From positions 1 to 41,054 of the forward strand of contig JAFTDN010000038.1 of NCBI GenBank assembly GCA_017454165.1: 41,054 nucleotides of DNA, read 5' to 3'. Shown piece by piece: positions 4,768-41,054 of this stretch (positions are counted from its first letter, which is position 1; every line of letters starts with the position of its first letter). Made by a program: the position numbers and the translations under genes. Under the pieces are notes generated by a model that worked only from the letters and a program-made list of their open reading frames with translations, was not told the DNA's origin and did no database searches. This DNA is from Bacteroidales bacterium (GTDB lineage: Bacteria; Bacteroidota; Bacteroidia; Bacteroidales; Tenuifilaceae).

Positions 4768-4799
4768 TTTGGGCGGTTCAAACAAAACCTGTACCTTTG
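4768..4799 (+). promoter_or_regulatory. Bacteroidota-type promoter for the riboswitch/DUF4465 transcript
   Basis: TTTG at 4768-4771, a 20-nt spacer, then TACCTTTG at 4792-4799. This fits the -33/-7 pattern TTTG-N19-21-TAnnTTTG known for the Bacteroidota primary sigma factor. Transcription would begin about 4804-4808, just before the conserved riboswitch core. Confidence 0.85.
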
Positions 4800-14374: not shown

Positions 14375-14437
14375 AGCATTTGCCCAAAAATATCCCCTCC
14401 CAATTGGGGCATGTCGATAAATTTTGCTTTCTTTATG

Positions 14438-14508
14438 GCTCACCGCTATCCTCCCATTGTCCCCCTCTACCTCCCTATATTGCTACGCTTCACGAAATAG
14501 CGGTGAGC
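14438..14508. repeat. 12-bp perfect inverted repeat with 47-nt spacer upstream of the LRR gene
   Basis: GCTCACCGCTAT (14438-14449) and ATAGCGGTGAGC (14497-14508) are exact reverse complements. The pair lies between the divergent DPP III unit and the LRR gene, 44 bases before its start codon. The spacer is pyrimidine-rich on the plus strand and contains no recognisable TAnnTTTG box in either orientation. It could form a long-loop hairpin in the leader RNA, be a two-half-site binding site, or flank an invertible piece. Confidence 0.6.
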
Positions 14509-14552
14509 TCGATTTGTCATACTATCCGTCTCACCATCAAACACAACACACT

Positions 14553-17500
14553 ATGAATCAACTCATTAACAACCACAAATGGGATTGCGTACGCCTGCTG
14601 CTATCATGCGCGCTATTGCTGACGGGCTATTTGGCTAGCGGCGCCCCAGGCATCGTCGTACAAGTTTACGGCAGCAATGACGGAGCAACCCTTACGGGCA
14701 TCTCGCTGGAAGAGGCGCTGAGTACAGTTCAGCTTGACACCCTGACCGAGATTTCAGTAACCGGTGGCGAATTCACCACCGATGACTGGCTGTATCTGCG
14801 CGACCAACGCAACCGCCTAGCCATACGGCATTTCTCGATTAGCCCTGGCGTAAGCTGCGCCAACATCCCCAACACCACCGAGGGAAATCCCTACTTCCAG
14901 AATAGGGCAATGTTCATTGGCATACGCCCCAACATTGAACGCCTTGGCGACTGGGCCTTCGCTGGCCTCGATAGCATTTACTGTAACATCGATTTGGTTG
15001 AACACGTGGGCAATAGCACATTCCGGGGCTCTGGATTGATCCACTTCATGGCCCCTCTCCTACAATCGGTGGGCGACTACGCCTTTGCGGGCTGCGACTC
15101 ACTAAGCCGCATAATGCTGGGCTACAACCCGCCCACCGTAGGCGCTGGCGCGTTCGACAGAAAAACACAGAAGCACCACCAGCTGGAGCTACAAAACCCA
15201 CAAGGCACCCAGCTCCCAGCCGATACGCTACGCCTAGCGCAGTACCTCTACAGCCTCACTCCTGGCTGGGATGCCGCTAAGAGCACCTGGCACGGGTTCA
15301 AGCTGATACTAAGCACGAGCAGCGGCCTGGTGGTGAATCTGAACGATGACCCCACCCCGCTGATAGGCTCCGATCTTGAGGCGGCGATGCTCCCAGTGCT
15401 CTCCACCTCGCAGCAGATGCCAACCAAGATAACTGTGGTGAGCGGAAGGTTGTACTACCGCGACTGGTATTTTATGGGCTCGATGCCAACTATCAGCACG
15501 CTGCATGTCGGCCCAGGCGTTAACGCAGACATGCCACCTGCTGGCCATTTCCCCAACAACATTAAGGAGCTGGAGGTACACGACTACATCATACAAAGCA
15601 ATGCGTTTGAAGAGAGCGGGCTCCAAAAGGTAAGCCTGCCCAACGTGTGGATGCTCGACAAGGACGCATTCAAGAACTGCAGACAGCTACGCGAGGTGCA
15701 TATCCCTAACTGCCTAATCATAGGAGACTGTGCCTTTGTGGACTGCGCCGAGCTGACCACCATAACCGACACAAATCTACTTAAAATCACGGGCCGCGCA
15801 TTCGCAGGATGCTCCAGCCTAGAGCACATCGACCTGAACAACGTGAAGGAGAGCAACCTGCTGGCCTTCGCCTACTGCGACAGGCTGAAGGCCATAAGCA
15901 TGCCCAACCTGCAGAAGTTCGTATTCGAGCCAACGACGAGCACCTTCCCCCACAGCATCAGCAGCCTGACGCTGGGTAGCACCCCGCCCACATTCTACGA
16001 CAACAGCAACCTCTCCTGCGCCACAGACGATGTGAAGGATGCGTTCACAAAGCACTACCTCAACCTGCGTTACATCGCGCTGGCCGACCCTCAGGGCACC
16101 CCCCTTACGGGCGAAGCCCTCGCCACCGCCATTGCGGCCTACAAGGCCGATGCAGGCTGGGACAATGCCACGCAAAAATGGTATGGACTGACGCTGCTCG
16201 ATGGCACCCAGCAGCTATACCAGCTGAGCGCAGCTGGGCGGGGCTCGCTGATCGACATATCATACCAGCAGTGTGGAGCCGACTCCAGCGTGGTGGCGCA
16301 CTGGAGCATACTGCCCCACTACATAGAGACCATAGCCCCCACCGTGAGCGTGTACAAGACGGGCGACCCCAGCACCACCGTGAGCGCCAGCATCGATATG
16401 GCGATGCAGCAAATATCGTTCACCATGCCAGCCCACGATGTTACCATAGAGGTGAGCTACACGCCCAACGTGATGGAGCTCACGCTCAACGGCAGCACCC
16501 CGCTCAGCGGGCTCTCGCTGGCCGAGGCCCTACGGGGCATAGATCCGCTACAGGTGAACAGCCTGCACATAAGCAAGAGCGAGATGTTCGACACCGATGA
16601 CTGGCAGTACCTGATGCAGCTGTCCAACATAGAGGAGCTCACCATGCACCCTGACGATGTGAAGAACGTCCGCTCGTTTGCCGAAACCATGGTTACGCTA
16701 TTCAAGCTGCGCGTATTCGAGGCACCCGTGAGCACCATTCCCCCAGACTGCTTCAAATCCCACCCAAGCATTGAGCGGGTGAGCCTGCCCTATGTGACAC
16801 AATTGCATAAGAGCACATTCACCTATGCAAGAAAGCTCACAACGGTGCACCTGCACAGCACCACCACGGTTGATGTTGAGTCATTCATCAACCCGCTACT
16901 AAAAGAGATAGCACTACCAAAGGCCTCCCAGTTGGAGGCGTATTCATTCCTGGATTGCCCACAACTATCGCTGCTACAGCTGGGCCAAACGCCACCCACA
17001 GTGGGCACCCAGGCATTCTATGGCTGCCCCAGCCCACGCTACCTACAGCTGGTGGGTGCCGATGGCACCCCGCTCACAGGCGATGCCCTGACCACAGCCA
17101 CCAATGCCTACAAGTCCGATGCTGGCTGGGATGCCACCGCTCAAACCTGGCACGGCTGGACGCTGTACCACGAAGCTCCACAGCTCTACCAAATCAGCAC
17201 CACCTGGAACGACCAAATGGGAACCCTAATCGCATCGCCCTCCATGGCACCACAAGGTGCCAGCATTGAGGTAAATGCGGGACCCGCTGCGGGCTATGCG
17301 TTCACCGCTGTGCGGGCCTACCAAACTGGCAACCCCAGCGTGAGCATACCCCTCAGCCGCCTGCCCAACGGCAGCTACAGCTTCGAGCAGCCTGCCCACG
17401 ATGTTACCGTGGAGGGCACCTTCGAGGCCAACCACATGGAGCTAACCATCAACAACAGCATAACCCGCACGGGCAACACGCTGATGACGAGCATAGACGA

Positions 17501-18944
17501 TATTGCCCCCCTGTACATCAACAGCCTAGAGGTAACCAAGGCCAAGCTATTCGCAGATATAGACTGGTTTGGTCTAACCCTGCTGCCCAACCTCGAGCAC
17601 CTGAGGCTCAACAGCGGGGTGGATACCATAGACAATAACAATGGAGGGGTAATCTTCGACAAGCTCCGCACACTTACCATCGAACGGCTTAGGGTGTTCA
17701 ACTTCCAGGTAGATGCAGACTCCCTGCGCTCAGTGAGCCTGCCCCAGACGGAGATCATCGGCACTTATGACTTTATGTTCAACAACGCCCTGAACGAGGC
17801 GTACCTCCCCGAGGTGCGCACATTGGAACTTGGGGCATTTCAATACTGCGGCCTGACCGCGCTGAGCCTCCCCAAGGCCGACAGCCTGCTGGCGAGCTCC
17901 TTTGCAGAAAATACTCAACTCAGCACGGCGAGCCTACCGCTAGTTAAGAAGTTGGGACAGGGCGTGTTCAGAGACTGCCACACCCTGTCGTTCATGCAGC
18001 TGGGCACAACGCCCCCTGTAGTGGAGATCGATGCATTCTCTGGCTGCCACAGCCCACGCTACCTACAGCTGGTGGGTGCCGATGGCACCCCGCTCACAGG
18101 CGATGCCCTGACCACAGCCACCAATGCCTACAAGTCCGATGCTGGCTGGGATAATGGTACTCAGGCCTGGCACGGCTGGATATTGCTAGGGGCTCCTGCG
18201 GTAATAGCCTACGAGAGCATCTGCGAGGGCGAGAGCTACACCTGGGCTGGCCAAACCTACAGCCAATCTGGTGCCTACCTCGACCTGAGCGACATAGCCA
18301 ACCCCAAAACGCTGATGCTAACCACAATACCCGTAGCCCGCAAGAGCATTAGCACCGAAATCTGCGCTGGCGAGAGCTTCGACCTCGCGGGCACCACCTA
18401 CACCCAAAGCGGCCTCTACTCCCACACGCTGGTGAGCCAGCTCACGGGCTGCGACAGCATCGTTACCGTGAACCTGAGGGTGCTACCGCCCGCCCACGGC
18501 GAGCTGAGCCACACCGCCACAGGTAGCTACGAGTGGTACGGCACCACCTACGATGCCAGCGGCGACTACGTGCACACGCTCACCACCGCCAACGGCTGCG
18601 ACAGCACCGTAACGCTGCACCTGACCATCGTGGACAAGCCCTCGGGCCTACGCGACAACGCACTGGAAACCATAGCGCTACACCCCAACCCCACCACAGG
18701 CGAGCTGTGGGTAACGGTGCCTTCGACAAGCTCAGGCACCGCCCCGTCCGAGGTGCGGGTGTACAACGCAGGCGGTCAGCTTGTGCTGCGTGTGCCCACG
18801 CATGGGGCTTCGACAGGCTCAGCCCCCACGACAGGCTCAGCCCCCACAGCTGAGGGCCGCACCCGCATCGACCTGAGCCGCCTGCCAGCAGGTGTATACA
18901 TAGTGCGCACGGCCAACGCCGCCGCCAAGGTAGTGAGGATGTAG
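14553..18944 (+). CDS. BspA-type leucine-rich-repeat surface protein with T9SS sorting domain
   Basis: From the ATG at 14553 (1463 residues) there is a signal peptide (basic NNHKWDCVR, then LLLSCALLLTGYLASG, cleavage near residue 30). Repeats of the BspA/LRR_5 type ('LRSVSLPQ...I..YAF..C..L') fill most of residues ~100-1210, broken by InlB-B-like segments (around 570-630 and 890-950, e.g. GYAFTAVRAYQTGNPSV, HDVTIEVSYTPN). Near 1215-1370 lie two or more copies of a Cys-containing repeat (ICEGESYTWAGQTYSQSG, ICAGESFDLAGTTYTQSG). The C-terminal T9SS sorting domain starts near HPNPTTGELW (residue 1377) and ends in a typical KVVRM. The upstream in-frame ATG at 14424 is rejected because it precedes the signal peptide by 43 unrelated residues. 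Likely exported across the outer membrane and anchored or released; LRR proteins of this class often act in adhesion, which is not shown here. Confidence 0.9.
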   Translation: MNQLINNHKWDCVRLLLSCALLLTGYLASGAPGIVVQVYGSNDGATLTGISLEEALSTVQLDTLTEISVTGGEFTTDDWLYLRDQRNRLAIRHFSISPGVSCANIPNTTEGNPYFQNRAMFIGIRPNIERLGDWAFAGLDSIYCNIDLVEHVGNSTFRGSGLIHFMAPLLQSVGDYAFAGCDSLSRIMLGYNPPTVGAGAFDRKTQKHHQLELQNPQGTQLPADTLRLAQYLYSLTPGWDAAKSTWHGFKLILSTSSGLVVNLNDDPTPLIGSDLEAAMLPVLSTSQQMPTKITVVSGRLYYRDWYFMGSMPTISTLHVGPGVNADMPPAGHFPNNIKELEVHDYIIQSNAFEESGLQKVSLPNVWMLDKDAFKNCRQLREVHIPNCLIIGDCAFVDCAELTTITDTNLLKITGRAFAGCSSLEHIDLNNVKESNLLAFAYCDRLKAISMPNLQKFVFEPTTSTFPHSISSLTLGSTPPTFYDNSNLSCATDDVKDAFTKHYLNLRYIALADPQGTPLTGEALATAIAAYKADAGWDNATQKWYGLTLLDGTQQLYQLSAAGRGSLIDISYQQCGADSSVVAHWSILPHYIETIAPTVSVYKTGDPSTTVSASIDMAMQQISFTMPAHDVTIEVSYTPNVMELTLNGSTPLSGLSLAEALRGIDPLQVNSLHISKSEMFDTDDWQYLMQLSNIEELTMHPDDVKNVRSFAETMVTLFKLRVFEAPVSTIPPDCFKSHPSIERVSLPYVTQLHKSTFTYARKLTTVHLHSTTTVDVESFINPLLKEIALPKASQLEAYSFLDCPQLSLLQLGQTPPTVGTQAFYGCPSPRYLQLVGADGTPLTGDALTTATNAYKSDAGWDATAQTWHGWTLYHEAPQLYQISTTWNDQMGTLIASPSMAPQGASIEVNAGPAAGYAFTAVRAYQTGNPSVSIPLSRLPNGSYSFEQPAHDVTVEGTFEANHMELTINNSITRTGNTLMTSIDDIAPLYINSLEVTKAKLFADIDWFGLTLLPNLEHLRLNSGVDTIDNNNGGVIFDKLRTLTIERLRVFNFQVDADSLRSVSLPQTEIIGTYDFMFNNALNEAYLPEVRTLELGAFQYCGLTALSLPKADSLLASSFAENTQLSTASLPLVKKLGQGVFRDCHTLSFMQLGTTPPVVEIDAFSGCHSPRYLQLVGADGTPLTGDALTTATNAYKSDAGWDNGTQAWHGWILLGAPAVIAYESICEGESYTWAGQTYSQSGAYLDLSDIANPKTLMLTTIPVARKSISTEICAGESFDLAGTTYTQSGLYSHTLVSQLTGCDSIVTVNLRVLPPAHGELSHTATGSYEWYGTTYDASGDYVHTLTTANGCDSTVTLHLTIVDKPSGLRDNALETIALHPNPTTGELWVTVPSTSSGTAPSEVRVYNAGGQLVLRVPTHGASTGSAPTTGSAPTAEGRTRIDLSRLPAGVYIVRTANAAAKVVRM
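17031..17132 (+). repeat. 102-bp perfect direct repeat, copy 1 (inside the LRR gene)
   Basis: Bases 17031-17132 are identical to 18051-18152, exactly 1020 bases apart and in the same reading frame. The encoded unit includes PRYLQLVGADGTPLTGDAL and the following NAYKSDAGWD. Other copies of the same protein unit (around 15180 and 16090) have diverged, so these two look recently duplicated or homogenised. Confidence 0.95.
18051..18152 (+). repeat. 102-bp perfect direct repeat, copy 2 (inside the LRR gene)
   Basis: Identical to 17031-17132; see that entry. Immediately outside the repeat the sequences diverge (GATGCCACC versus GATAATGGT on the 3' side). Confidence 0.95.
18719..18840 (+). repeat. 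Cluster of TTCGACAGGCTCAG-type elements in the T9SS-domain coding region of the LRR gene
   Basis: CTTCGACAAGCTCAGG (18721-18736), TTCGACAGGCTCAG (18809-18822) and a shorter CGACAGGCTCAG (18829-18840) occur in frame and give the STSSG, GASTGSAPTTGSAPT stretches in loops of the sorting domain. TTCGACAGGCTCAG and its complement form a repetitive oligonucleotide found dispersed in many bacterial genomes; here the copies sit inside coding sequence. The same family recurs at 27481-27494 in the protease gene. Confidence 0.75.
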
Positions 18945-19373: not shown

Positions 19374-22300
19374 ATGAGCAACAGACTATTACCCCTACTC
19401 CTGCTGACCACGCTATCGCTCACAGCACAAGGGCAGCAGGAAGTGCGCATTGGCCAGCACCGCTACACACCGCCGGCCAACACCGATGCGCTCTACGCGC
19501 CCACCCGTTCGGAGGCAGCTACCAGCCCACGGCATCTGCTGATACAATTCAGCACGCTGCCAACCGCTATAGAGCGGAAACAGCTGTCTAACAATGGCAT
19601 ACGCCTGCACGAATACCATGGCAGCAACACCTTTGCCGCCACAGTGGACGTGCGGCAGATCCACAGCTCCCCCGCAAACGCAAACATCGTGGCGGCATTC
19701 ACCATGCAACCCGAGTGGAAAATATCGGCCCAACTGGCCGAGGGGCGTGTGCCCCCCCACGCGCTGACCGCCAGCGGGCAGCTGCTGGTGCTAGTGCACT
19801 TCTCCCCCACCATGACCGAGGCCGAGGTATCTGCTCAGCTACGCGGCCTAGGGCTCCGGGCGCAACGCATCGACAGCCGCTTCTTCACAATACACATGCA
19901 GCTAAGCCGCAGCGGCCTCAACCGGCTGGCCCAGCTGCCGTGGGTGCAGGCCATAAAACCCACGCCAGCCCCCCAGCAGCTCTACAACCGCACGGGGCGC
20001 GGCGTAATTAAGGCCAATGTGCTGAGCACCGCCCCCGAGCTGCACGGGCGCGGTCTGACGGGCCATGGCGTGCGAGTGGGAATATGGGACGGTAACGTGG
20101 CCCCGCATCCCGACTATGGAAGCCGCCTGCACCAACAGGAGTTCGAGATGTCGATTGAGGAATCGGGCGGGCACGGCATGCACGTGGCCGGCACGGTGGC
20201 AGGAGCTGGTCTGATCGACCCCGCTGCCATGGGCATGGCCCCCGAGGCCGACTTCTATACCTACAACTTCAACGTGCAGAGCAACGGCCTGTACGCCTTT
20301 GAGGAGATGGCCGAAGCCCGCGAGCGCTTCGGCATCAACATCACGCAGAACTCCTACGGCGTGTACATGGACAACTTCTGCGATGACATCAGCCCGCTTA
20401 CGTACAACGCCTTTGGCCAAGACGCGGGCATCGACCACATAGCCAACCTCTACCCCTCGCTGCTGCACCTATTCGCGGCGGGCAACGAGCAGCAATCGTG
20501 CGGATTTCAATACGGCAGCTCCACCACGCGCCTCAAGACCGCCCTGCTAGTGGGCGCGGTGAACAGCCTGAGCGGTATGACCGACTTCAGCAGCTGGGGG
20601 CCGATGGACGATGGCCGCCTGCTGCCCACCGTGTGCGCCATGGGCGAGGCCGTGTACTCCACCATGCCCGACGGCACATACGCCCGCATGGACGGCACAT
20701 CGATGGCCACCCCTGCGGCCTCGGGCCTGATGGCCCTGCTGGTGGAGCGCTACCGTCAGCTGCACAACGGCCATGAGCCGCTCTCGGCCCTGATGCGGGC
20801 CGTGGCCGCCAATACCGCCGATGACCGCGGCCGCCCTGGCCCCGACTACCAGTTCGGCTACGGTGTGCTGAACGGCGAACGCGCAGCGCAAACCATCGAG
20901 AATAGCTGGTACACATCTGGATACATATCGCAAGGCGATGCCGATGCCACACACACCATCGCGGTGCCCGCAGGCACCAGGCAGCTACGCGTGATGCTGT
21001 CATGGACCGACACCATAAGCACCCACGAGCACTATTTTGGGGAACCAGCCCTGGTGAACGACCTCGACCTGACGGTGAACGGCCACCAACCATGGGTGCT
21101 CGACAAAGATTTCCCCGACAACGATGCCACCCAGGGCCGCGATACCTTGAACAACCTAGAGCAGGTAACCATCGACCACCCCGCTGCGGGCAATTACATC
21201 GTGAAGGTGCACGCCAACCGGGTGGTGTCGAGCAGGCAGCAGTACGTGGTGGTCTACCACATCGAACGCGAGGGGCTGCGACTGGCCAGCCCTGTGGGCG
21301 GCGAGCGGCTTGCCCCAGGCGATGAAATGCTCGTTCGCTGGTATAATGCCGAAATGCCTGTTACCATTGAACTTTCATATGATGGGGGGCAGAGCTATAC
21401 CGCTATAGCTTGCGATGTTGCCCCCGAGCTACAGCAGCTCGCTATAGATATTCCTTCCGATGCTCCAGCCACTAGCAGCGCATTGCTGCGGGTGTCGGAC
21501 GGTAAAGGCGTGGCCGTAAGTGCGGCTCCGTTTACAATTGCGGGCGTGCCGCGCCTTACGCTTACTGCGCAGGGCGCTGGGTGTAGCATGGGCGGGTATG
21601 TTTTGAACTGGGACGATATTCCTGAAGCCTCCGAATATCAAGTGCTACGCGCCGATGTGGCTCAGGGTAGCTATCTGCATATAGCTACGGTTAGCAGTAA
21701 TCAGTATAGCATTGAAAATCAACATATAAGCAATAATGAGCACAACGTATTTGCCGTGCAGGCTGTGTACAACGGCATTGTAGGGCGGCGTTCGCTGGCC
21801 GTGCGGGTTAAATCCCCGCAACCTATCGAGTTGACGGGTAATACGCTGCCATTCAAGGAGATATTCGCCCTCGGCGTTCCGCAACATGTAGAACTGACGG
21901 CAGGGGCCAACCTGAGCGAGATTTACGGGGATATGCCCTCCTATTTCGAGCCCGAACTGGGCGAGCGCTATTACATGGTAACGCCCGATACCAATGCCCA
22001 TGATGGGGCAACGGTTGATGCCCCATTTGATGGCACCGAAAGCAATCAGGTGGTGCTGCGCTTGTGCAACATCGACCTGACGGGCATTGCAGCGGGAACC
22101 CCCATTATGCTGCATTTCAACACCATGAGCCGCCGGGGCAGCGACCCGCGTACCACCTCCATGCGCGTGCGCATCGATGGCCAGCCTGTGCCCGACATCG
22201 ATGGTGCTATATTGCATCATCCCAAGCAGATAGAGGAGAGCACGTGGACTACGCATTACTACGACCTGTCGGCCTACGTGGGCCAAACGCTGTCGATTGC

Positions 22301-25300
22301 CATAGAGGCCGCCATGCTCACCACTTACGATGGTATAGGCTTCGCCCATATTGTTATCGATAAAATGGCCCAGCAGCCCGACTTGCAAATAGCTGGTATG
22401 CAGTCAGTTCAGTCGGGGCACAACCTAGGAAACAACAATCCCGTGAGCATTACGCTGTTCAATCGATACCACCAAGCCCTGCACGATGTGCTGGTGAGCT
22501 ATAGCATAAACGGGCAACATGTTGTTACCGAAATAATTAAGGAAATAAAACCGTATCAGCAGCTCAGCTACACTTTTGGGGCCCGCGCCGACCTGAGCAC
22601 AGCGAACGACCTGGGCGAGCGGTTCTATATTGAGGCTATGGCCGAGATTGGCAATGACATCGACATCTCGAACAACACCGCACTGTGGGAGGTGAGCAGC
22701 TATGGCAATGCCTTTGTGCTGCCCTATGCCGAGCTTATCGATGCGGGCATATTCGACAAAAATAGCACCGATGCCAAAACCGTGAAGCGTGTTGATGGAA
22801 GCCTGTTATTTACTGACGATGGGGGAGCCTTTGGCAGCTACCGAACCAACAATCAGTCATCGGTCCGTTTCGTGCCAACGAACCCCGACAAGGTGATAAG
22901 GATTACGTTCCAGCAGTTCGACACCGAATATGAGTACGACGTGATGAGCATTTGGACCAATGCGCTGGGCTTCCCAGGCTATGTTGGCACAGAGCCCGAT
23001 TATATGCTTTCCGATGTGTGCGATGGGCGAGCATTCGTTTCGGGGGCCTCCGATGGCGGCCTATGCCTTACGTTCTATAGCGACGAAAGCTTTACCGCCG
23101 ATGGGTGGGTTGCCCTAGTTGAAGAGATTGACCCGGTGAACATGTTCGCCATACGGCTACACCCCATGGCCTACGAGCCCACGGGGCAAGTGCCCGTAAC
23201 CATCACGGTGAAGAACTTAAGCGATAGCCCAGTAGCCAATGTAGATGTAGCCTTCGTGCTCGACAACAACCGAGTGGAGGAGCAGATTCCCAGCATAGCT
23301 CCGCATGGATCTGTTGATTATACATTTACCGAATTTGCCGATCTCAGCGAGCTGGCCTATCACACCTTGTCGGTAATGGTGCTGAGCAGCGATGCAATGC
23401 CTATCGACAATCGTGTGGATACGATGATAATCAATGATATATATTGCAGAATTGATGAAATAGCCAATCCTGAGCGGGTGAATATCACTGGCGTAGAGAT
23501 GCTTGAGGGCGAATATTATAGCTTCTACGAAGCCGCCAGCACCCATGTCGATTATCAGACCGCCAGCACTTTCACCGCTTATATGCAGAATGCCGAGCTG
23601 GCTCAGCTCACGGTGTATATCGACAACCCATCGAGGAGCGATGCCATTGGCGTGGCTGTGGACTGGGACGATGATGGTAGCTTTGAACAGGTGGGCATGG
23701 CTACACTTCGGGCCGATGAGTACGTGTACACCATCGACTTAAACAATGGTATGCGGCCTGGCGAACATCGTATGCGCGTGGGGGTTATGAATGCATCGAT
23801 ACTCGACCCCTGCCCCGCTGGTGCAATTAGCTATGGGAGCATTAAAGATTTCACCCTAAATGTGATAGATGGCCCATATCCCATGCAGAACGATTTTGGC
23901 ATCGAGATAGAAGCCTTGATCTCGGGCGTGAACCTCATCGATGCTGAAATGCTGTCGGTTGTTATCACCAACAACTCGCCCAACGCCGCCGCCCCAGGCC
24001 TAGTGGAGGTCGATGTCGATGGAGTAACATTTACTGAAGATGTTACAGAGGCGGTAGTACCATTTGGCGTGCTGTATTACGACTTCGCTCAGAGCATCGA
24101 CCTGTCGGCAGCAGGCGAGCACCACGTAACGGCGAGGCTGCTTTCCCCCGACGATGACAGCAGCAACGATATGTCCGCAGTCGATATACACAACGTAGTG
24201 CCCGCCAGCGATGGCTTCTACGCAATCGAGATGCTGAACGCAGACGACGAGCACATCAACCTGGGGAATTTGAACGGCATTAGTTTCGATGCTATGACGT
24301 TTACCCTTGAGGCCTGGGTGAAGTTGCATCCCGCTTCGGTGAATAATATTTTCAGGGGCAAAGACGTGGTGGTAGCAGTCATGAACAGGCCCGAAATAGG
24401 CGTCGAGAATGCCGTGGTTGTGTCGTTTGGCGGGCAATCGGTGTTCTACACCGATAATGATGTTTTCGTCCCCAATATGTGGCAACATGTGGCTGTAAGT
24501 GTAGAACCAATTGAGCATCAAATGTTTGGCGAGTACCCCCGCCCCACCATCTATATCAATGGCGTGGCGCAGGAACTTTTCGAGGAGGATGCGCATATGG
24601 GATATATGTCGGAAACATATGATAAAGAGCTATTTGCGGCCCATCGCATGGGCGGTGTCATCAAGGCCATACGCGTATGGGAAACGAGCCGCACGGCCAG
24701 CGATATAGCAGCAGACATGTACCGCTTGGTACGGCAGCCTCATGGCGACCTTCCGTTCGGCTGCGTGGCCGAGTTTGCCCTCGATGAGGGCCCAGGCAAC
24801 AGCGCAGTGCATTCGGGCTACGACATTGCTACTCTAGTGAGCTCACGGGGCGATGCCGTATGGGCCGACCCCGCCGACTTGGTGGCCCGCATGAACTTCG
24901 AAGAGCAAACCGAGCCCGTGGTGCGGCACGATAAGCAAAGCTACACCGTTTTGCTCGATTCTCGGGCCAATCTATCGTCTGTTGCAGGGCATGTGCAACC
25001 CGCTTGGCCCAACGCCACCATAACCTACAACGGACAACCAATCGATGGCCCAGCCACCTTCGACTTCGGATCTGGAACTATTGCCCTACAGGCTCAGGCA
25101 CAGCTCTTTGGACGCAACATCGGCTATGAAATCAGCATAAGCGGCCAGCACGATGCCTCCAACGAATGCTCGTTGCTGAGGCTCGTGGCGCTGGGCGGGC
25201 ATGGCAGCTCCGATGCGCACGTGACACCCATCGCGGCCACTAACATCATAGAGCTATGGGGACTCTCCGACCTCACGGCGGTGGACATCGACTTTGAGGT

Positions 25301-27785
25301 ATCGCCCGGGGCTACGCTCCTATACAATGGCATGGCATACAGCAACGGAGATGCGCTCACCATCGACCTTTCCCAAACCGTCATGCTCACCGTGGTGGCC
25401 GCCGATGGCAAGCATCGCCAATGCTATTCGTTGGCCAATGTTCGCGCCAATTCCATTAGCGGATTGCAACGCTCTTACGGTGTAACTTATGGCATTGCGC
25501 CTTGGGCTCTTGGTGCTACAGCAGCATCGGGCCTGCCCGTTGAGTATGCCTCAAGCAATAACCGTGTGGCTACCGTATCCAACGGGCAGCTTCATATCGT
25601 GGGCGCAGGGGAGGCCATAATTTCTGCCTATCAAGATGGGGGCAATGGCTTTGGCCCTGCTGCCCCAGCAACATGCAATGTAACGGTGAATGTCAAAGCG
25701 ATTCTTGCTAAGCCGCTCGACCAGCACATATCGTACATCGATACATTGCCATCGATACAGATGCAATATACTGGTTTGGTGAATGATGCAGATACAATGC
25801 TGATACAAATACCTGAATATGAGTTGTTTGTTGATGGTGTGAAATATGACCCCTTAAAAGGTTATCTTCCCCAAGGTTCTCATGATTGGAGGCCCGTTGT
25901 AGCAAGCGGGTATCAGGGTAATTATTATGTATTTTTTGATCCTGCACGTGTCCATGTAGCTAGCTGGCCCGCCGTCAGTACAATCATTGCGGTAGAGAGC
26001 GGCGGCAATCCCGTGAGCGATGCTCACGTAACGCTGTGCTCCGCCGGTCGATGCATAGAGCATAGCACCAGTATCTCGGGCCAAACGCCAAGCATCGACC
26101 TCGAGGGCGGTACTACCTATAGCTACACCGCACAGGCCGATGGCTACGCCGCAGCTACAGGCAAATTTATAGCAGGGACAAGCCCAACCGTAAGCATAGA
26201 GCTGCTGGCGCTGGCCCACACGCTCACCTACACTGCCAATGCTCACGGTGCCATACACGGAAAATCCGCGCAGCGGGTACCCAACCATGGCACGGGACTT
26301 TCCGTAGAGGCCATCCCCGTAAGAGGTTATAGCTTTACGCGGTGGAGCGATGGCAGCACCCAAAACCCACGTACCGACACCAATGTGCAGTCCGATATGG
26401 CGGTTGAGGCCCAATTCTCCCTAAATATCTACACGGTGGAATACCTAGCCGATGCCAATGGCAGCCTCAGCGGCGAACTTGCACAAACAATCGATTTCGA
26501 AAAAAATGGCACACCGGTGACCGCCATTCCCAACGCCAACTACCACTTCGTGGGCTGGAGCGATGGCCGCACCGACAACCCCCGTACCGACATGGGCTCT
26601 GCCAACATGCAGGTGACGGCCCTGTTCGAGTACGCCCCTGAGGTGCTGATAGACCTGCCCTACGCGCAACATTTCGAGGACTCCCCCCTCATGGCGATGC
26701 CCGATGGCTGGTACGTCGAGGACAACCTTGCCACGGGCTCAACAGAGCGCTGGCGCGTACTGGCCGACTACATAGGCATGGCCCGCATGACCGGCAACTT
26801 TGCGCTCGTAGGCACCTACATCGGCGAGAACAGCGAGGCCAATGCGGCGCTGCTCAGCCCATGGTTCAACGTAAGCAACCTCACCGCAGCCGACACCCTC
26901 CACGTGGACTTCCGCTACATGTACGCGGGCTTCGCCCCCACGGCCCACTTCGGACTAAGCTACCGCACCCACCCCGATTCCGCGTGGACAGCGATGTGGG
27001 CAGCCTCCAACCACAACGAAACCCCGCTCGATGTGCTCAACGCAGCGCTCAGCCTCAACTGGCCCCCACTTGGCCAGGCCAACAAGCTACAGCTACGCTG
27101 GAGCTACACCGACCAGCAGGGCTACTGGGCCGCACTCGACAGCTTGCACGTATACGCAACAACAGGCAGCACACTCCACCAGCTCACCATCAACGTAATG
27201 GATAGCGAGGCCAAGCCCATAGAGGGGGCCACGATAACAATTGAGGGACGCACCCTCACCACCGATGCCATCGGCACCGTAAGCGATAGGCTACAGCCTG
27301 GCACCTACATCTACACCGTAGAGAAGGTGGGGTACGGCCCAGCGAGCGGTAGCGTAGCGCTGTCCTGCGACACGATGATAAAGGTAACGCTGGGCAAAGC
27401 CGCCGGACAGCGCAGCCCCGGGCTAAATCTACTAAGCGTACACCCCAACCCCACCACGGGCGAGCTGTGGCTAACGGTGCCTGAGCCTGTCGAAGGCACC
27501 ATCGAAGGCACCGCCACCGCCGAGGTACTGGTGTACAATGCCAGCGGCCAGCTGCTGCTGCGAGTGCCCACGCAGGGGGCCTCGACAGGCCCAGCCCACG
27601 CAGCGGGTCGCATCGGCATCGACCTGAGCGGCCTACCTGCGGGCATATACATAGTACGCATGGGTAGCAGCGCCGCCAAGGTGGTGAAAATTTCAAGACC
27701 ACAGCAACACCATTTAAAACAGCAGGGGCGAGCCAATCAGGTTCGCCCTGCTGTTTTAAAATGGTGTATAGACATCCCACCATGA
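19374..27785 (+). CDS. Giant secreted subtilisin-like (S8) protease with adhesion domains and T9SS sorting domain
   Basis: 2803 residues. Signal peptide (MSNRLLPLLLLTTLSLTAQG), a propeptide region (~25-205), then an S8 catalytic domain with Asp239 (GIWDGNV), His267 (GHGMHVAG), oxyanion Asn371 (AAGNE) and Ser443 (DGTSMATP). Further on: fibronectin/CARDB-like modules, a GEVED-like domain with the acidic loop DWDDDGSF at residue 1430, a LamG-like region (~1620-1770), Ig-like and MBG-like repeats (~1880-2200), two InlB-B-like repeats (~2280-2420, RWSDGSTQNPRTD and GWSDGRTDNPRTD), a cleaved-adhesin-like domain (~2425-2600), a PEGA/carboxypeptidase-regulatory-like repeat (~2602-2670) and a T9SS sorting domain from HPNPTTGELW (2690) to KVVKI (2773). 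A further 30 residues encoded by terminator-like sequence follow. All triad residues are present, so it should be active on the cell surface or outside. Middle domains are assigned by eye and less certain. Confidence 0.9.
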   Translation: MSNRLLPLLLLTTLSLTAQGQQEVRIGQHRYTPPANTDALYAPTRSEAATSPRHLLIQFSTLPTAIERKQLSNNGIRLHEYHGSNTFAATVDVRQIHSSPANANIVAAFTMQPEWKISAQLAEGRVPPHALTASGQLLVLVHFSPTMTEAEVSAQLRGLGLRAQRIDSRFFTIHMQLSRSGLNRLAQLPWVQAIKPTPAPQQLYNRTGRGVIKANVLSTAPELHGRGLTGHGVRVGIWDGNVAPHPDYGSRLHQQEFEMSIEESGGHGMHVAGTVAGAGLIDPAAMGMAPEADFYTYNFNVQSNGLYAFEEMAEARERFGINITQNSYGVYMDNFCDDISPLTYNAFGQDAGIDHIANLYPSLLHLFAAGNEQQSCGFQYGSSTTRLKTALLVGAVNSLSGMTDFSSWGPMDDGRLLPTVCAMGEAVYSTMPDGTYARMDGTSMATPAASGLMALLVERYRQLHNGHEPLSALMRAVAANTADDRGRPGPDYQFGYGVLNGERAAQTIENSWYTSGYISQGDADATHTIAVPAGTRQLRVMLSWTDTISTHEHYFGEPALVNDLDLTVNGHQPWVLDKDFPDNDATQGRDTLNNLEQVTIDHPAAGNYIVKVHANRVVSSRQQYVVVYHIEREGLRLASPVGGERLAPGDEMLVRWYNAEMPVTIELSYDGGQSYTAIACDVAPELQQLAIDIPSDAPATSSALLRVSDGKGVAVSAAPFTIAGVPRLTLTAQGAGCSMGGYVLNWDDIPEASEYQVLRADVAQGSYLHIATVSSNQYSIENQHISNNEHNVFAVQAVYNGIVGRRSLAVRVKSPQPIELTGNTLPFKEIFALGVPQHVELTAGANLSEIYGDMPSYFEPELGERYYMVTPDTNAHDGATVDAPFDGTESNQVVLRLCNIDLTGIAAGTPIMLHFNTMSRRGSDPRTTSMRVRIDGQPVPDIDGAILHHPKQIEESTWTTHYYDLSAYVGQTLSIAIEAAMLTTYDGIGFAHIVIDKMAQQPDLQIAGMQSVQSGHNLGNNNPVSITLFNRYHQALHDVLVSYSINGQHVVTEIIKEIKPYQQLSYTFGARADLSTANDLGERFYIEAMAEIGNDIDISNNTALWEVSSYGNAFVLPYAELIDAGIFDKNSTDAKTVKRVDGSLLFTDDGGAFGSYRTNNQSSVRFVPTNPDKVIRITFQQFDTEYEYDVMSIWTNALGFPGYVGTEPDYMLSDVCDGRAFVSGASDGGLCLTFYSDESFTADGWVALVEEIDPVNMFAIRLHPMAYEPTGQVPVTITVKNLSDSPVANVDVAFVLDNNRVEEQIPSIAPHGSVDYTFTEFADLSELAYHTLSVMVLSSDAMPIDNRVDTMIINDIYCRIDEIANPERVNITGVEMLEGEYYSFYEAASTHVDYQTASTFTAYMQNAELAQLTVYIDNPSRSDAIGVAVDWDDDGSFEQVGMATLRADEYVYTIDLNNGMRPGEHRMRVGVMNASILDPCPAGAISYGSIKDFTLNVIDGPYPMQNDFGIEIEALISGVNLIDAEMLSVVITNNSPNAAAPGLVEVDVDGVTFTEDVTEAVVPFGVLYYDFAQSIDLSAAGEHHVTARLLSPDDDSSNDMSAVDIHNVVPASDGFYAIEMLNADDEHINLGNLNGISFDAMTFTLEAWVKLHPASVNNIFRGKDVVVAVMNRPEIGVENAVVVSFGGQSVFYTDNDVFVPNMWQHVAVSVEPIEHQMFGEYPRPTIYINGVAQELFEEDAHMGYMSETYDKELFAAHRMGGVIKAIRVWETSRTASDIAADMYRLVRQPHGDLPFGCVAEFALDEGPGNSAVHSGYDIATLVSSRGDAVWADPADLVARMNFEEQTEPVVRHDKQSYTVLLDSRANLSSVAGHVQPAWPNATITYNGQPIDGPATFDFGSGTIALQAQAQLFGRNIGYEISISGQHDASNECSLLRLVALGGHGSSDAHVTPIAATNIIELWGLSDLTAVDIDFEVSPGATLLYNGMAYSNGDALTIDLSQTVMLTVVAADGKHRQCYSLANVRANSISGLQRSYGVTYGIAPWALGATAASGLPVEYASSNNRVATVSNGQLHIVGAGEAIISAYQDGGNGFGPAAPATCNVTVNVKAILAKPLDQHISYIDTLPSIQMQYTGLVNDADTMLIQIPEYELFVDGVKYDPLKGYLPQGSHDWRPVVASGYQGNYYVFFDPARVHVASWPAVSTIIAVESGGNPVSDAHVTLCSAGRCIEHSTSISGQTPSIDLEGGTTYSYTAQADGYAAATGKFIAGTSPTVSIELLALAHTLTYTANAHGAIHGKSAQRVPNHGTGLSVEAIPVRGYSFTRWSDGSTQNPRTDTNVQSDMAVEAQFSLNIYTVEYLADANGSLSGELAQTIDFEKNGTPVTAIPNANYHFVGWSDGRTDNPRTDMGSANMQVTALFEYAPEVLIDLPYAQHFEDSPLMAMPDGWYVEDNLATGSTERWRVLADYIGMARMTGNFALVGTYIGENSEANAALLSPWFNVSNLTAADTLHVDFRYMYAGFAPTAHFGLSYRTHPDSAWTAMWAASNHNETPLDVLNAALSLNWPPLGQANKLQLRWSYTDQQGYWAALDSLHVYATTGSTLHQLTINVMDSEAKPIEGATITIEGRTLTTDAIGTVSDRLQPGTYIYTVEKVGYGPASGSVALSCDTMIKVTLGKAAGQRSPGLNLLSVHPNPTTGELWLTVPEPVEGTIEGTATAEVLVYNASGQLLLRVPTQGASTGPAHAAGRIGIDLSGLPAGIYIVRMGSSAAKVVKISRPQQHHLKQQGRANQVRPAVLKWCIDIPP
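27478..27498 (+). repeat. TGAGCCTGTCGAAG element in the protease T9SS domain
   Basis: CTGAGCCTGTCGAAGG (27481-27496) is the reverse complement of the TTCGACAGGCTCAG family found at 18719-18840. It is in frame and encodes the loop PEPVEG at the same place in the sorting domain as the STSSG loop of the LRR protein. A degenerate relative (CCTCGACAGGCCCAGCC) occurs near 27582-27598. Confidence 0.75.
27710..27764 (+). terminator. Long hairpin terminator lying inside the protease reading frame
   Basis: CCATTTAAAACAGCAGG... (from 27710) pairs with the complementary arm ending ...CCTGCTGTTTTAAAATGG (to 27764), about 24 bp with one bulge and one G-A mismatch around a short loop. It has the form of a strong terminator with TTTT at 27753-27756. 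It is followed only at 27783-27785 by the first in-frame stop codon of the protease gene, so a transcript ended here would lack a stop. Confidence 0.85.
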
Positions 27786-37193: not shown

Positions 37194-37225
37194 TTTGGAT
37201 GTGCATTGGGCATGCAGTATTTTTG
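37194..37225 (+). promoter_or_regulatory. Promoter of the peptide-maturation cluster
   Basis: TTTG (37194-37197), 20-nt spacer, TATTTTTG (37218-37225): an exact fit to TTTG-N20-TAnnTTTG. The start of transcription would be near 37231, about 30 bases before the first start codon. All six following genes are on this strand with small gaps or overlaps, so this may drive the entire cluster. Confidence 0.85.
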
Positions 37226-37259
37226 TATTTACCTGATAATCTAAAACCGTCTACGTGAT

Positions 37260-37532
37260 ATGAGCGCACAGAACGATTCGGTATTGGAGCTGCTGACTAA
37301 ACACCAGCTCGACAAGCAGACCATGGACACCTTCGCTGGTGGCTACACGATGCTCTACACCACTAAAAGCGGCATGGTATCCATCCGCTATTCTGACAAG
37401 GACTGCTCCATAAGGGAAATACGGCTGAAGGGAGACTGCAACGGCGGAGGATACTGGGTTTTCGCCCACGAATTGCCCCATGATGATAGAATTGTACTAG
37501 ACTCCTGCCTATGCCCATGCGACGAGGAGTAG
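37260..37532 (+). CDS. 90-residue protein with Cys-rich tail; candidate substrate peptide of the maturation system
   Basis: A small cytosolic protein without signal peptide. It begins MSAQNDSVLELLTKHQLDKQ, which looks like an amphipathic leader, has a central DTFAGGYTML and beta-like SGMVSIRYSDKDCSIREIRL, and ends in VLDSCLCPCDEE with three Cys and three acidic residues. It is first in the transcript behind a perfect promoter. Small genes next to ATP-grasp and SPASM maturases are usually their modified peptides, so this is a candidate precursor (inference). I do not recognise the sequence as a described precursor family, and no canonical GG cleavage site is evident, except the GG at residues 27-28. 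It overlaps the next gene by 22 bases (or 16 with the later ATG). Confidence 0.6.
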   Translation: MSAQNDSVLELLTKHQLDKQTMDTFAGGYTMLYTTKSGMVSIRYSDKDCSIREIRLKGDCNGGGYWVFAHELPHDDRIVLDSCLCPCDEE

Positions 37533-38350
37533 CATGGCTCCTGACGTTGCTGCTCCTTGCCTCCGTTTCACTGCGCGGGCAGAATGGTATTGATCCGCTG
37601 CATGGGCTCTGGCGCGATGCGCACAACTCCCAACGCTATTGGTGTTTCTATAGCAATGGGAGCTGTAAGGAGCAACGGGCTGGGGGCATGGTATACAGTC
37701 GTTATAGGTTCGAACAACGAGGCGATACCTGCCTCTGGGCTACAAGCTACCTGGGGCATGATGAGCATTACTACGTGGCCTTTCGTGGTGACACCATGGC
37801 CTACTACAGCGTGAAATCGCGTATAAATCGCTCCGACCTAGTACATGAATACGGCATGGCGGTGCGTGATTGCGGCTTTGGCCCAGCACCGCTGCGCGTA
37901 GCGCGGTACGCGCCCTCCCCCCCCTTGCGTATAGTGCTCCCCAAGGGATTTCGAGGCATGGCTGTGGTGGAGTTCGACAACCCGAGCGGGGCATATCTGC
38001 GCCCCAACGCACGCGGAGAGTTACTGCTCAATGTGCCCAAGAACGGGGTGCTCAGGGTGCGCAACCCGATAGACGCTTTTGCCATTGCATTCCGCGATTA
38101 TCGGGTATTCGAAGAGGGAAAGCCCCTCCCTGAACTGATTGCTCCCTATTGGCATAGCCCGCCCAGCAATGCCACGCAATTAGCCCCAAGCGATAGGACA
38201 GTGCGGGTGTTCGGGCTCAATGTGGCATCGCGCAATCAGCTGAGGGCCAAGCATGGGGAGAAGTTCGATGGCAATGTGCTATTGGTGGGCTGCGACCGCG
38301 CCGATAAGCTCAGCGTGGGGATAGAATATATGCAGGGATGCTATCCTTAA
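37511..38350 (+). CDS. Secreted protein A of the cluster, DUF6843-like C-terminal domain
   Basis: 279 residues (277 if the ATG at 37517 is used) with a signal peptide (RRGVAWLLTLLLLASVSLRGQ). The N-terminal half (~25-135) has a WCFYSNGSCKE...YSRYRFEQRGDTCLWATSYL pattern of a small beta domain. The C-terminal part (~137-210) reads LRIVLPKGFRGMAVVEFDN...GELLLNVPKNGVLRVRN, which aligns with secreted protein B (39523-40380) and resembles the domain family DUF6843 as I remember it (IPxGYxGxVxVxF...YxIPxSGIL). It starts inside the end of the 90-residue gene, a sign of translational coupling, and is followed by the ATP-grasp gene after 12 bases. Function unknown; by location outside the cytosol it is not an obvious partner of the maturases. 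Confidence 0.75.
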   Translation: MPMRRGVAWLLTLLLLASVSLRGQNGIDPLHGLWRDAHNSQRYWCFYSNGSCKEQRAGGMVYSRYRFEQRGDTCLWATSYLGHDEHYYVAFRGDTMAYYSVKSRINRSDLVHEYGMAVRDCGFGPAPLRVARYAPSPPLRIVLPKGFRGMAVVEFDNPSGAYLRPNARGELLLNVPKNGVLRVRNPIDAFAIAFRDYRVFEEGKPLPELIAPYWHSPPSNATQLAPSDRTVRVFGLNVASRNQLRAKHGEKFDGNVLLVGCDRADKLSVGIEYMQGCYP

Positions 38351-38362
38351 CCTACGGATGCT

Positions 38363-39262
38363 ATGGCTGTTTTAATCCTTTCAGATAGCACCGATCTAAC
38401 TACCTGCCAAGTGATAGATTGGCTACGTGTTTTAGGGCATGATTTTGTGAGGATGGGCATTTCTGAATTGCATACGAAGTGCCAACTTACCATTGATTTC
38501 ACAGGTAAAAGTGTACTGTATCATAAAGGGCAACGTATCGGGAGTATTTGGTTCAGGCGCAATGATGACGATGCATCAGTGTTGCGAACCATAAAATCCA
38601 ATATTATACGTAAACTAGCGCGGCGAAAAATAGAGGAAACACGCACTGTGAATAGCATTCTCGATTATGGAGATATATTTTGGCTGTCGCACCCTCGGTC
38701 GGAAAGCATCAACAAATTGAGGGTAATACAACGGGCTAATGCATTGCACATTAGAATTCCACCTACAATTGTAACGAACACCAAAAGGGATCTTATCAGT
38801 TTTATAGCCCAGCATGACATAGTCATTTCCAAGGCGGTTTCTGAAAACTTGTCCATCACGGATATAGGTAGCAGACAACTGTATAGGCAAGCTGTTGTAT
38901 TATTGGATAGTAATAATACACAATCTATTCCAAATAAATTTCATTCGTCCATGTTTCAAAAGTTTATCCATAAACAGTATGATGTCCGAATTTTCTTTCT
39001 AGATGGAAAAATCTATTCCATGGCAATATTTAGTCACAGCCATGATTATAGAGAGGCATATTCAAGTAACAGGAATGTACCATATACATTGCCAAATGAA
39101 GAGCAAAATAAAGTAGCAATATTGATGCGCGATTTAGGACTGAATATTGGCTGCATAGACATGATAATGGGAACTGATGGCCAGCTTTATTTGCTAGAAG
39201 TGAATCCCAATGGACAATTTGGAGACATGTCATTGGACTGCAATTATCATTTGGAACGATAG
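38363..39262 (+). CDS. gwsG: ATP-grasp peptide maturase, grasp-with-spasm system (GwsG type)
   Basis: 299 residues. ATP-grasp maturases use ATP to form amide or ester bonds on a ribosomal peptide. The N-terminus (VLILSDSTDLTTCQVIDWLR) and SIWFRRNDDDASVL match the pattern of the GwsG family, and the active region ends in IGCIDMIMGTDGQLYLLEVNPNGQFG, with the Asp and Glu/Asn metal ligands of ATP-grasp enzymes. The frame ends in CNYHLER-TAG; continuing past the stop gives VADWLIKNDLAYER and a TGA, which looks like the rest of the family's C-terminus (see finding). By eye the gene is very AT-rich (19 of 60 G/C in 38941-39000). The pairing with a SPASM maturase downstream makes the assignment firm; the substrate is inferred to be one of the two small neighbours. 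Confidence 0.85.
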   Translation: MAVLILSDSTDLTTCQVIDWLRVLGHDFVRMGISELHTKCQLTIDFTGKSVLYHKGQRIGSIWFRRNDDDASVLRTIKSNIIRKLARRKIEETRTVNSILDYGDIFWLSHPRSESINKLRVIQRANALHIRIPPTIVTNTKRDLISFIAQHDIVISKAVSENLSITDIGSRQLYRQAVVLLDSNNTQSIPNKFHSSMFQKFIHKQYDVRIFFLDGKIYSMAIFSHSHDYREAYSSNRNVPYTLPNEEQNKVAILMRDLGLNIGCIDMIMGTDGQLYLLEVNPNGQFGDMSLDCNYHLER

Positions 39263-39307
39263 GTAGCCGATTGGCTTATTAAAAATGATTTGGCATATGA
39301 ACGATGA
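39263..39307 (+). other. Apparent cut-off C-terminus of gwsG (read-through segment)
   Basis: In the gwsG frame directly after the TAG (39260-39262) the codons read VADWLIKNDLAYER followed by TGA at 39305-39307. This continues the helix ...NYHLER and ends overlapping the next gene's start (ATG at 39297), as is usual in a tightly coupled operon. I take it as former or still-used coding sequence rather than spacer. Confidence 0.55.
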
Positions 39308-39515
39308 GCTGCTAATATATATAGAATCCCATAAAGATGGGTTACCATACGGTTTTCATGACCTAAAAATAGAACAGCTATCAGTGGGAAAAGGTGATTT
39401 CATAGAAACTGAGGAGAATTCGTTTTACAACGGCATTCGTGTCGGAGTGGGACGGTTTTACAAACCTATATTATCCATTGCCGCAGATGCTACAACTGGC
39501 GAAATATTTAAATAA
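39297..39515 (+). CDS. 72-residue small protein in the maturation cluster
   Basis: From ATG 39297 (MNDELLIYIESHKDGLPYGF...) the product has 72 residues; an ATG at 39285 would add four. It has no signal peptide or Cys. The C-terminal third, GVGRFYKPILSIAADATTGEIFK, has adjacent Thr and nearby Asp/Glu/Lys that an ATP-grasp maturase could cross-link, so it is a second precursor candidate (inference, low). It has the same position relative to secreted protein B as the 90-residue protein has to protein A. No family recognised. It is strongly AT-rich. Confidence 0.55.
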   Translation: MNDELLIYIESHKDGLPYGFHDLKIEQLSVGKGDFIETEENSFYNGIRVGVGRFYKPILSIAADATTGEIFK

Positions 39516-39522
39516 TTTTTTT

Positions 39523-40380
39523 ATGGATATGGATAGAATCCTGCTGTTCGTAGCCCTGTTATTATCCACAAATACGACCAAATCACAATGTCCTAGTCCT
39601 AGTGGCCACACCTTTCCCGATTCCATCAGAGGCGAATGGATGCTGTGCGATGATACCACGCAGAGCATTATTTTCGGCGATTATGGAGAAATGATAACAA
39701 AAAACCAATTTAAATCTTATATTTCTTTTGTACGTTTAGAGCGGCATGGCGATACTACGTTCATGGTTGGCGAAACTGGCCATCGAACGGGCATCCGCAT
39801 CAACGGAGATTATCTAGAGGTGCATCCGTATAGAAAGATTACTGGTGTGCTTGCTCATGGCAACTGCTACGTGCGTTGCAGCTGCGGGCCGCAGCCCGTT
39901 AGGGCCGATGAGCATCATATCAAAATCATAGTGCCAGCTGGCTTCAGCGGGCGCATCGCAATTGCACTAGACCAGAAGCAAGGTGCTGCTACTGAGTACG
40001 ATGAGCAGGGAAACATCATGCTCAAGGTACCCCAAAGTGGGCTGCTAGAAAGCCAGGCCATTGCCGATGGCTTTGCCATATCGGGCGGTCGCTACCGCTT
40101 CTACGTGGAGCGTGACGGGCGGCTGGAGGCAATGCCCCATTCCAGTCGCACCGACCGTGGCCGTGCGCGGCTATACGCCGAACCCTTAGTGGGCATCATG
40201 TGCGGATTTAATGCTGGCATCAGCACTGATGCGGCCAGCAAAATGTTCGGAAAGGAAATTGTGGGCGAGGTGCTAATCATGTCGGTGCTCCCCCCCGATG
40301 AGGCCCGCAGGAGGGAAGCGGGCATACTCGGATGGGTTGGCCCAGAGTATGGCGAAAGCCCGTTGCTTAATGGTGAATAG
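39523..40380 (+). CDS. Secreted protein B of the cluster, paralogue of protein A
   Basis: From ATG 39523 the protein is 285 residues (ATG 39529 is equally possible); an ATG at 39439 would run through the preceding gene and is rejected. Signal peptide DRILLFVALLLSTNTTKSQ. The N-terminal half holds ...GEWMLCDDTTQSIIFGDYG and SFVRLERHGDTTFMVGETGH; the C-terminal domain IKIIVPAGFSGRIAIALDQK...GNIMLKVPQSGLL...YRFYVERDGRLEAMP aligns with protein A's C-terminal domain in order and spacing and is closer to the DUF6843-like consensus. The gap to the previous gene is 7 bases and to gwsS 3 bases, so it belongs to the operon. Confidence 0.78.
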   Translation: MDMDRILLFVALLLSTNTTKSQCPSPSGHTFPDSIRGEWMLCDDTTQSIIFGDYGEMITKNQFKSYISFVRLERHGDTTFMVGETGHRTGIRINGDYLEVHPYRKITGVLAHGNCYVRCSCGPQPVRADEHHIKIIVPAGFSGRIAIALDQKQGAATEYDEQGNIMLKVPQSGLLESQAIADGFAISGGRYRFYVERDGRLEAMPHSSRTDRGRARLYAEPLVGIMCGFNAGISTDAASKMFGKEIVGEVLIMSVLPPDEARRREAGILGWVGPEYGESPLLNGE

Positions 40381-40383
40381 CGC

Positions 40384-41054
40384 ATGAGCGATGACCTCAC
40401 ATTTATCCTCCACGCCAATTGCATTCCTGTCAGAGGGGCCGCAGAAAGCTTGATATATGACCTAGGCCGTGGCGAATGCCTTCCATTGGAGAATGGACTG
40501 TCCGACATATTAGAACGTAGCAATAGCAGCCGCATTACGGTGGGCGAGCTGAAATCATTCTACAACCATGAGCATGATGCTGGAATTACCGCCCTGTTCG
40601 ACTATATCGCACGCAAGGGCTACGGTTTTTACACCAGCACACCCCAATATTTTCCCCCTCTAGATTTAAGTTGGGCCTCCCCCTTCCCAATTACCAATGC
40701 CGTGATAGAGGCTCACAACTGGGATATTTCGAGTGCTGCGCTATCAGAAATTGTGGGCATAGGATGTCAGGCCATAGCATTAATATTCCTTGCCCACATC
40801 TCGTTAAGCAGCATAGAACAGCTATTTATATCCAAGATAAAGCATTCACAAACATCGTATGCCAGCATATACATGCCATATAATGAGACTATAAGCCGCA
40901 AAGATATAGAGAAGATATTGATACGCAATCAAATTATCAGCAATATTTCATTGCTAGTTGATTGCAAGCAACAAAGCCTCGGGCTATTGAATGAGCTACC
41001 CACATTGCTCCAGAGGAGGGTGCTACTTGTTGATGCCGAGGGATTAAGTTTAGG
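40384..41054 (+). CDS. gwsS: SPASM-domain peptide maturase, grasp-with-spasm system (GwsS type), 3' truncated by the window
   Basis: Only the first 223 residues are visible; the frame stays open to the window's last base. The start ATG at 40384 gives MSDDLTFILHANCIPVRG and is 3 bases after gene B's stop. The N-terminal block ILHANCIPVRGAAESLIYDL, then ITVGELKSFYNHEHDAGITA and YGFYTSTPQYFPPLDLSWAS, match the N-terminal part of GwsS proteins as I know them. The SPASM domain expected near the C-terminus (Cys clusters binding auxiliary Fe-S) lies outside. Among the visible residues there is no CxxxCxxC radical-SAM motif. The partner is gwsG. In pathway terms this protein should act on the same precursor. 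Confidence 0.85.
   Translation, partial: MSDDLTFILHANCIPVRGAAESLIYDLGRGECLPLENGLSDILERSNSSRITVGELKSFYNHEHDAGITALFDYIARKGYGFYTSTPQYFPPLDLSWASPFPITNAVIEAHNWDISSAALSEIVGIGCQAIALIFLAHISLSSIEQLFISKIKHSQTSYASIYMPYNETISRKDIEKILIRNQIISNISLLVDCKQQSLGLLNELPTLLQRRVLLVDAEGLSL

Follow-up and report, generated by a model that had tools for sequence, protein, structure and literature searches.

The window analysed here, i.e. the whole stretch of 41,054 nucleotides, is one entire contig of a draft genome (2.54 Mb, 190 contigs), and a grasp-with-SPASM (gws) operon occupies its distal end. An exact match to a Bacteroidota-type promoter (TTTG-N20-TATTTTTG, positions 37194–37225, plus strand) is followed on the same strand by six closely spaced open reading frames (ORFs): a small ORF (ORF1), an exported protein (A), the ATP-grasp ligase GwsG, a second small ORF (LPL), a second exported protein (B) and the SPASM peptide maturase GwsS. 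ORF coordinates and the pattern match thereby confirm the exact promoter, the tight packing and the gene order given in an earlier note on this DNA. The promoter pattern occurs twice in the 41-kb window versus 0.12 expected occurrences. Position 41054 is the contig end, and GwsS is truncated there. Up to this point no C39-type ABC exporter is found in the operon; C39 proteins are encoded elsewhere in the genome, one of them close to another gws locus on contig C150.

The operon forms a low-G+C compositional island. GC3 ranges from 0.33 to 0.68 in the operon versus 0.67–0.87 in the remaining contig, and is lowest in GwsG and LPL. G+C is higher in the exported proteins (0.57 for A and 0.53 for B) than in GwsG and LPL (0.39 and 0.38, respectively), which suggests that the two sets came from different sources. 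The sister species (G001) retains the same upstream gene run, which is followed by a different gene on the opposite strand; no gws operon is present there. Either gain in the present genome or loss in the sister species could account for this difference, but the composition of the operon favours gain. No close homologues of any operon gene were found.

The family search that the earlier note had proposed upholds its reading of the unit as a grasp-with-SPASM operon. GwsG (38363–39262, plus strand, 299 aa) has TIGR04192 as its best family (E 1.5e-53), with 182 bits versus a curated cut-off of 230, and the partial GwsS (40384–41054, in frame to >41052, plus strand) matches TIGR04193 over positions 2–189 of 342 (E 2.2e-22), with 80 bits versus a cut-off of 175. 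The low score of GwsS results from the cut by the contig end. In an 18-row alignment, the conserved residues of the catalytic region of GwsG are intact and loop deletions are present. A TAG at 39260–39262 terminates the GwsG frame 15 codons early; the frame then continues with VADWLIKNDLAYER, which matches the conserved C-terminal GwsG tail of relatives in a tail comparison. This read-through frame (39260–39307) ends with a TGA and so has an 11-base overlap with the start of LPL (ATG at 39297); relatives show such an overlap too. Either a nonsense mutation or an error in the assembly would explain the TAG. Given this premature stop and the incomplete GwsS, the present copy of the operon may not be functional.

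The truncation of GwsS falls ahead of its SPASM cysteines, which about 110 of 113 aligned GwsS sequences retain. A CxxxCxxC radical SAM motif is found in the first 200 residues of none of the 112 full-length GwsS proteins (L036–L055, L091–L106 and L115–L194). Although the C-terminal SPASM cysteines are kept, radical chemistry by GwsS should, on this basis, not be assumed.

The two small ORFs have no similarity to each other on direct comparison. ORF1 (37260–37532, plus strand, 90 aa) is the first gene of the operon, as precursor genes are in relatives, and consists of a leader (...HQLDKQTMDTFAGG) ending in GG and a cysteine-containing core. Its leader was scored with a position-specific matrix built from 103 precursor windows and anchored on the GG, which replaced a leader HMM from a gapped alignment (2 bits). 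Only seven of 1223 background GG sites score as high as ORF1, although composition-matched shuffles do so in 6% of cases; among real precursors ORF1 ranks at the 26th percentile. The match to TIGR04149 is weak and below the cut-off (E 0.23). No clear ORF1 homologue is present in 28 genomes, in keeping with the described diversity of precursors in such clusters (PMC8939145). The assignment of ORF1 as a GG-leader precursor of a ribosomally synthesized and post-translationally modified peptide (RiPP) is supported but not proven.

The second small ORF (39297–39515, plus strand, 72 aa; 76 aa from an alternative start at 39285) scores 15.4 bits with an LPL profile, while the best of 20,000 self-shuffles reaches 9.9 bits. 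It carries the signature ...GLPYGF...FYKPILSI (LP...KPIS in the family) and lies between GwsG and GwsS, the position of LPL in other gws loci. By profile, signature and position it is an LPL partner protein, and the identities of GwsG, the partial GwsS and LPL are established at the level of sequence comparison. An assignment of LPL as PqqD-like, or to any particular fold, was considered and dropped, the predicted model being too weak (pLDDT 71, pTM 0.29). Two fusions bear on its partners: an LPL-like domain is joined to the N-terminus of GwsS in another locus (L127:7995-9302; 38 bits), and an LPL domain is probably joined to the C-terminus of GwsG on contig C41 of the same genome (L036:8663-9739, minus strand; 16.8 bits, best shuffle 7.8). 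These fusions suggest that LPL is a partner serving both enzymes. Published work inclined towards the SPASM enzyme as the associate of LPL but left room for the ATP-grasp enzyme (PMC8939145).

Protein A (37511–38350, plus strand, 279 aa) adjoins GwsG upstream and protein B (39523–40380, plus strand, 285 aa) lies between LPL and GwsS. The two are homologous (BLASTP E 8e-15) and carry export signals, including a hydrophobic signal peptide in A, as the earlier note had recognized. Its DUF6843-like label holds for the C-terminal domain of B, which matches DUF6843 (PF20862) with E 1.3e-4 and 22.2 bits without reaching the Pfam gathering score of 27; A has no DUF6843 match of its own. Two of their three relatives in another genome (G004) match DUF6843 above the cut-off. 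The family architecture is an N-terminal domain lacking any Pfam match plus a DUF6843-like C-terminal domain. The residues invariant in four members are mostly Gly, Pro and aromatic ones; a small number are Asp, Arg or Asn, and neither His nor Cys is among them. The AlphaFold2 prediction for B, made from two sequences, has a pLDDT of 39 and supports no statement on fold. The sequence pattern raised the idea of a lipocalin-like N-terminal domain, which no tool supports.

The host genome contains no further copy of the A/B family, so that both of its copies lie in this operon, and G004 is the only other carrier among 27 searched genomes of the host's taxonomic family. G004 has three copies. Two form an unlinked tandem pair with housekeeping genes as neighbours; the third follows GwsS immediately and is split by a transposase gene of the IS1595 (ISXO2-like) type (L051:11372-13353). 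With the window excluded, a gws locus thus stands no more than a few kb from one of the three G004 copies; scaled roughly to the fraction of the genome covered, chance would produce this about 2% of the time. B matches the first member of the unlinked pair clearly best (109 bits) and A matches its second and first members about equally (84 and 81 bits), while A and B match each other with 59 bits only. The A/B split is probably older than the operon, since each protein is nearer to the unlinked pair than to the other; branch supports for the split are 64–79 only. Wider samples contain the two-domain family only rarely, and DUF6843 itself is found in about 6% of the genomes of the class. A search with the A/B profile gave 77 pattern matches and no confirmed one in 84,980 named genomes, and nothing below E 0.07 among PDB sequences. 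Neither GwsG nor GwsS was found within the few kb examined around DUF6843 loci outside the gws set.

We compared the operon with 116 gws loci, of which 36 are stretches from this genome, from relatives or from elsewhere in the phylum and the other 80 are named loci obtained through a GwsG alignment; a few loci were found twice, which leaves 109 distinct ones in the positional count. GwsS is present at 114 of the 116 GwsG loci. The usual order is one or more GG precursors, often an exported protein, GwsG, LPL and GwsS, often followed by a C39 ABC exporter and HlyD. This agrees with the published account of branch 5, where LPL immediately precedes SPASM enzymes and exported proteins of cluster 23 occur (PMC8939145). 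Almost every locus has an LPL-type protein, and each LPL match within the 80 named loci lies just downstream of a GwsG. By our own crude signal-peptide rule, 31 of the 42 gws loci that have a gene immediately before GwsG encode an exported protein there, versus 29% of background genes (p 2e-9). A cluster-23-like family is present in 43 gws loci, and the A/B family in two of about 117 (the window and the G004 locus). The same genome has three more gws loci (G000 contigs C41, C169 and C150), with different exported proteins where their neighbours are readable.

A gene of at least 120 aa between GwsG and GwsS is found in one of the 109 distinct loci, L092, whose order is precursor, exported protein 1, GwsG, LPL, exported protein 2 and GwsS. 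Its two exported proteins are paralogues of the cluster 23 type (45% identical). The window thus shows the layout of L092, built from an exported family unrelated to the one found there. Like A, the cluster 23/DUF6624-like proteins have an export signal and stand directly before GwsG, and in L092 a second paralogue stands between LPL and GwsS. No sequence similarity was found between them and A and B, however, which group only with the G004 copy at E 1e-4. In brief, the operon resembles grasp-with-SPASM systems (TIGR04192/TIGR04193; branch 5, PMC8939145) in its putative GG-leader precursor, GwsG, LPL ahead of GwsS, and exported protein. It differs from the usual case in that the exported protein is of another family and present twice, with one copy between LPL and GwsS, and in that the GwsG tail is absent. 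It likewise shares DUF6843 (below threshold in the C-terminal domain of B, and in the G004 relatives) but departs from PF20862 in the matchless A and in the extra N-terminal domain of both proteins. An exported protein just before GwsG, commonly of cluster 23, is the usual and already known situation; a two-domain DUF6843-like family in this slot, and its second copy between LPL and GwsS, are new. The earlier note had held DUF6843-type proteins to be undescribed for grasp-with-SPASM systems, and our literature search found no paper to the contrary.

Graspetide ATP-grasp ligases form ester or amide cross-links. We consider it likely that the operon is a horizontally variable branch 5 grasp-with-SPASM RiPP cluster in which A and B are dedicated envelope partners of its peptide. 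The 90-aa product of ORF1 would be the precursor, delivered in the cytoplasm by LPL to both GwsG and GwsS; GwsG would introduce ester or amide cross-links between side chains, and GwsS would act on the precursor via its SPASM domain. A C39-type ABC exporter, possibly in trans, would then remove the GG leader. A and B, exported by their signal peptides and taking the slot held by DUF6624-like cluster 23 proteins in other clusters, would work beyond the inner membrane in peptide binding, protection or release. Position, export signals and slot sharing make envelope-side partners of the exported peptide (in binding, immunity or release) the most likely role for the two proteins. That the genome's further gws loci carry other exported proteins also favours a locus-specific role. 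In favour of partners we count that both host copies lie in the operon and that one of three G004 copies directly follows GwsS; against it we count the unlinked tandem pair in G004 and the presence of the family at only two of about 117 gws loci. The literature searched contains no characterized product of any grasp-with-SPASM cluster.

The occurrence of the A/B family outside gws loci, and its rarity within them, means that A and B could instead be passengers, i.e. a pair of ordinary exported proteins of the DUF6843 type whose genes came to lie in the operon and which have no role for the peptide. The G+C of A and B above that of GwsG and LPL, and their closer relation to the unlinked G004 pair than to each other, fit such an origin. 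Against this, A and B occupy two separate, tightly spaced slots, one of them the usual slot for an exported protein; a third copy directly follows GwsS in another genome; and an unrelated exported family holds the same two slots in L092. We regard passengers as unlikely. Still less probable is an enzymatic function of A and B after export, in trimming the peptide or modifying it further. Such a role has been proposed for cluster 23, where conserved His/Arg residues were read as a hint of activity (PMC8939145), and A and B share its slot, but the four A/B members lack any invariant His or Cys.

A different question is whether this copy is decaying, the loss of the GwsG tail having ended peptide production. 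An in-frame TAG ahead of a conserved tail, with the frame running on to the ancestral stop, would be expected of decay, as would a GwsG score under the family cut-off together with loop deletions. The catalytic-region residues of GwsG and the other frames are intact, however, and a one-base error is possible in a 190-contig draft assembly; we therefore consider decay rather doubtful, if somewhat less so than passengers. The model of the earlier note, in which a cassette of a small ORF and a secreted protein was duplicated around the two maturases to give two products, is highly improbable. A and B are indeed paralogues, but the small ORFs are unrelated, one being precursor-like and the other LPL rather than a precursor, and the split between A and B appears older than the operon. 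That note had made its model depend on small-ORF/secreted-protein pairs recurring beside other GwsG genes; in the tabulated neighbours they almost never do, the exceptions being the G004 locus with its broken A/B copy and L092 with the same six-gene layout built from another family.

To return to envelope partners as the preferred reading, that the same pair of slots is filled by one exported family here and by an unrelated one in L092 suggests a common envelope-side job. We tentatively propose, at somewhat less than even confidence, that the A/B family is a second, unrelated partner family that has independently come to occupy the exported slots of a graspetide cluster. If so, function (that of a cognate partner of the exported peptide, or of an immunity protein for it) rather than descent would define the slot.

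Two further features of the window lie upstream of the operon. The sole other exact match to the TTTG-N20-TATTTTTG promoter is at 4768–4799, and two very long ORFs extend over 14424–18944 (1506 codons) and 19374–27785 (2803 codons).
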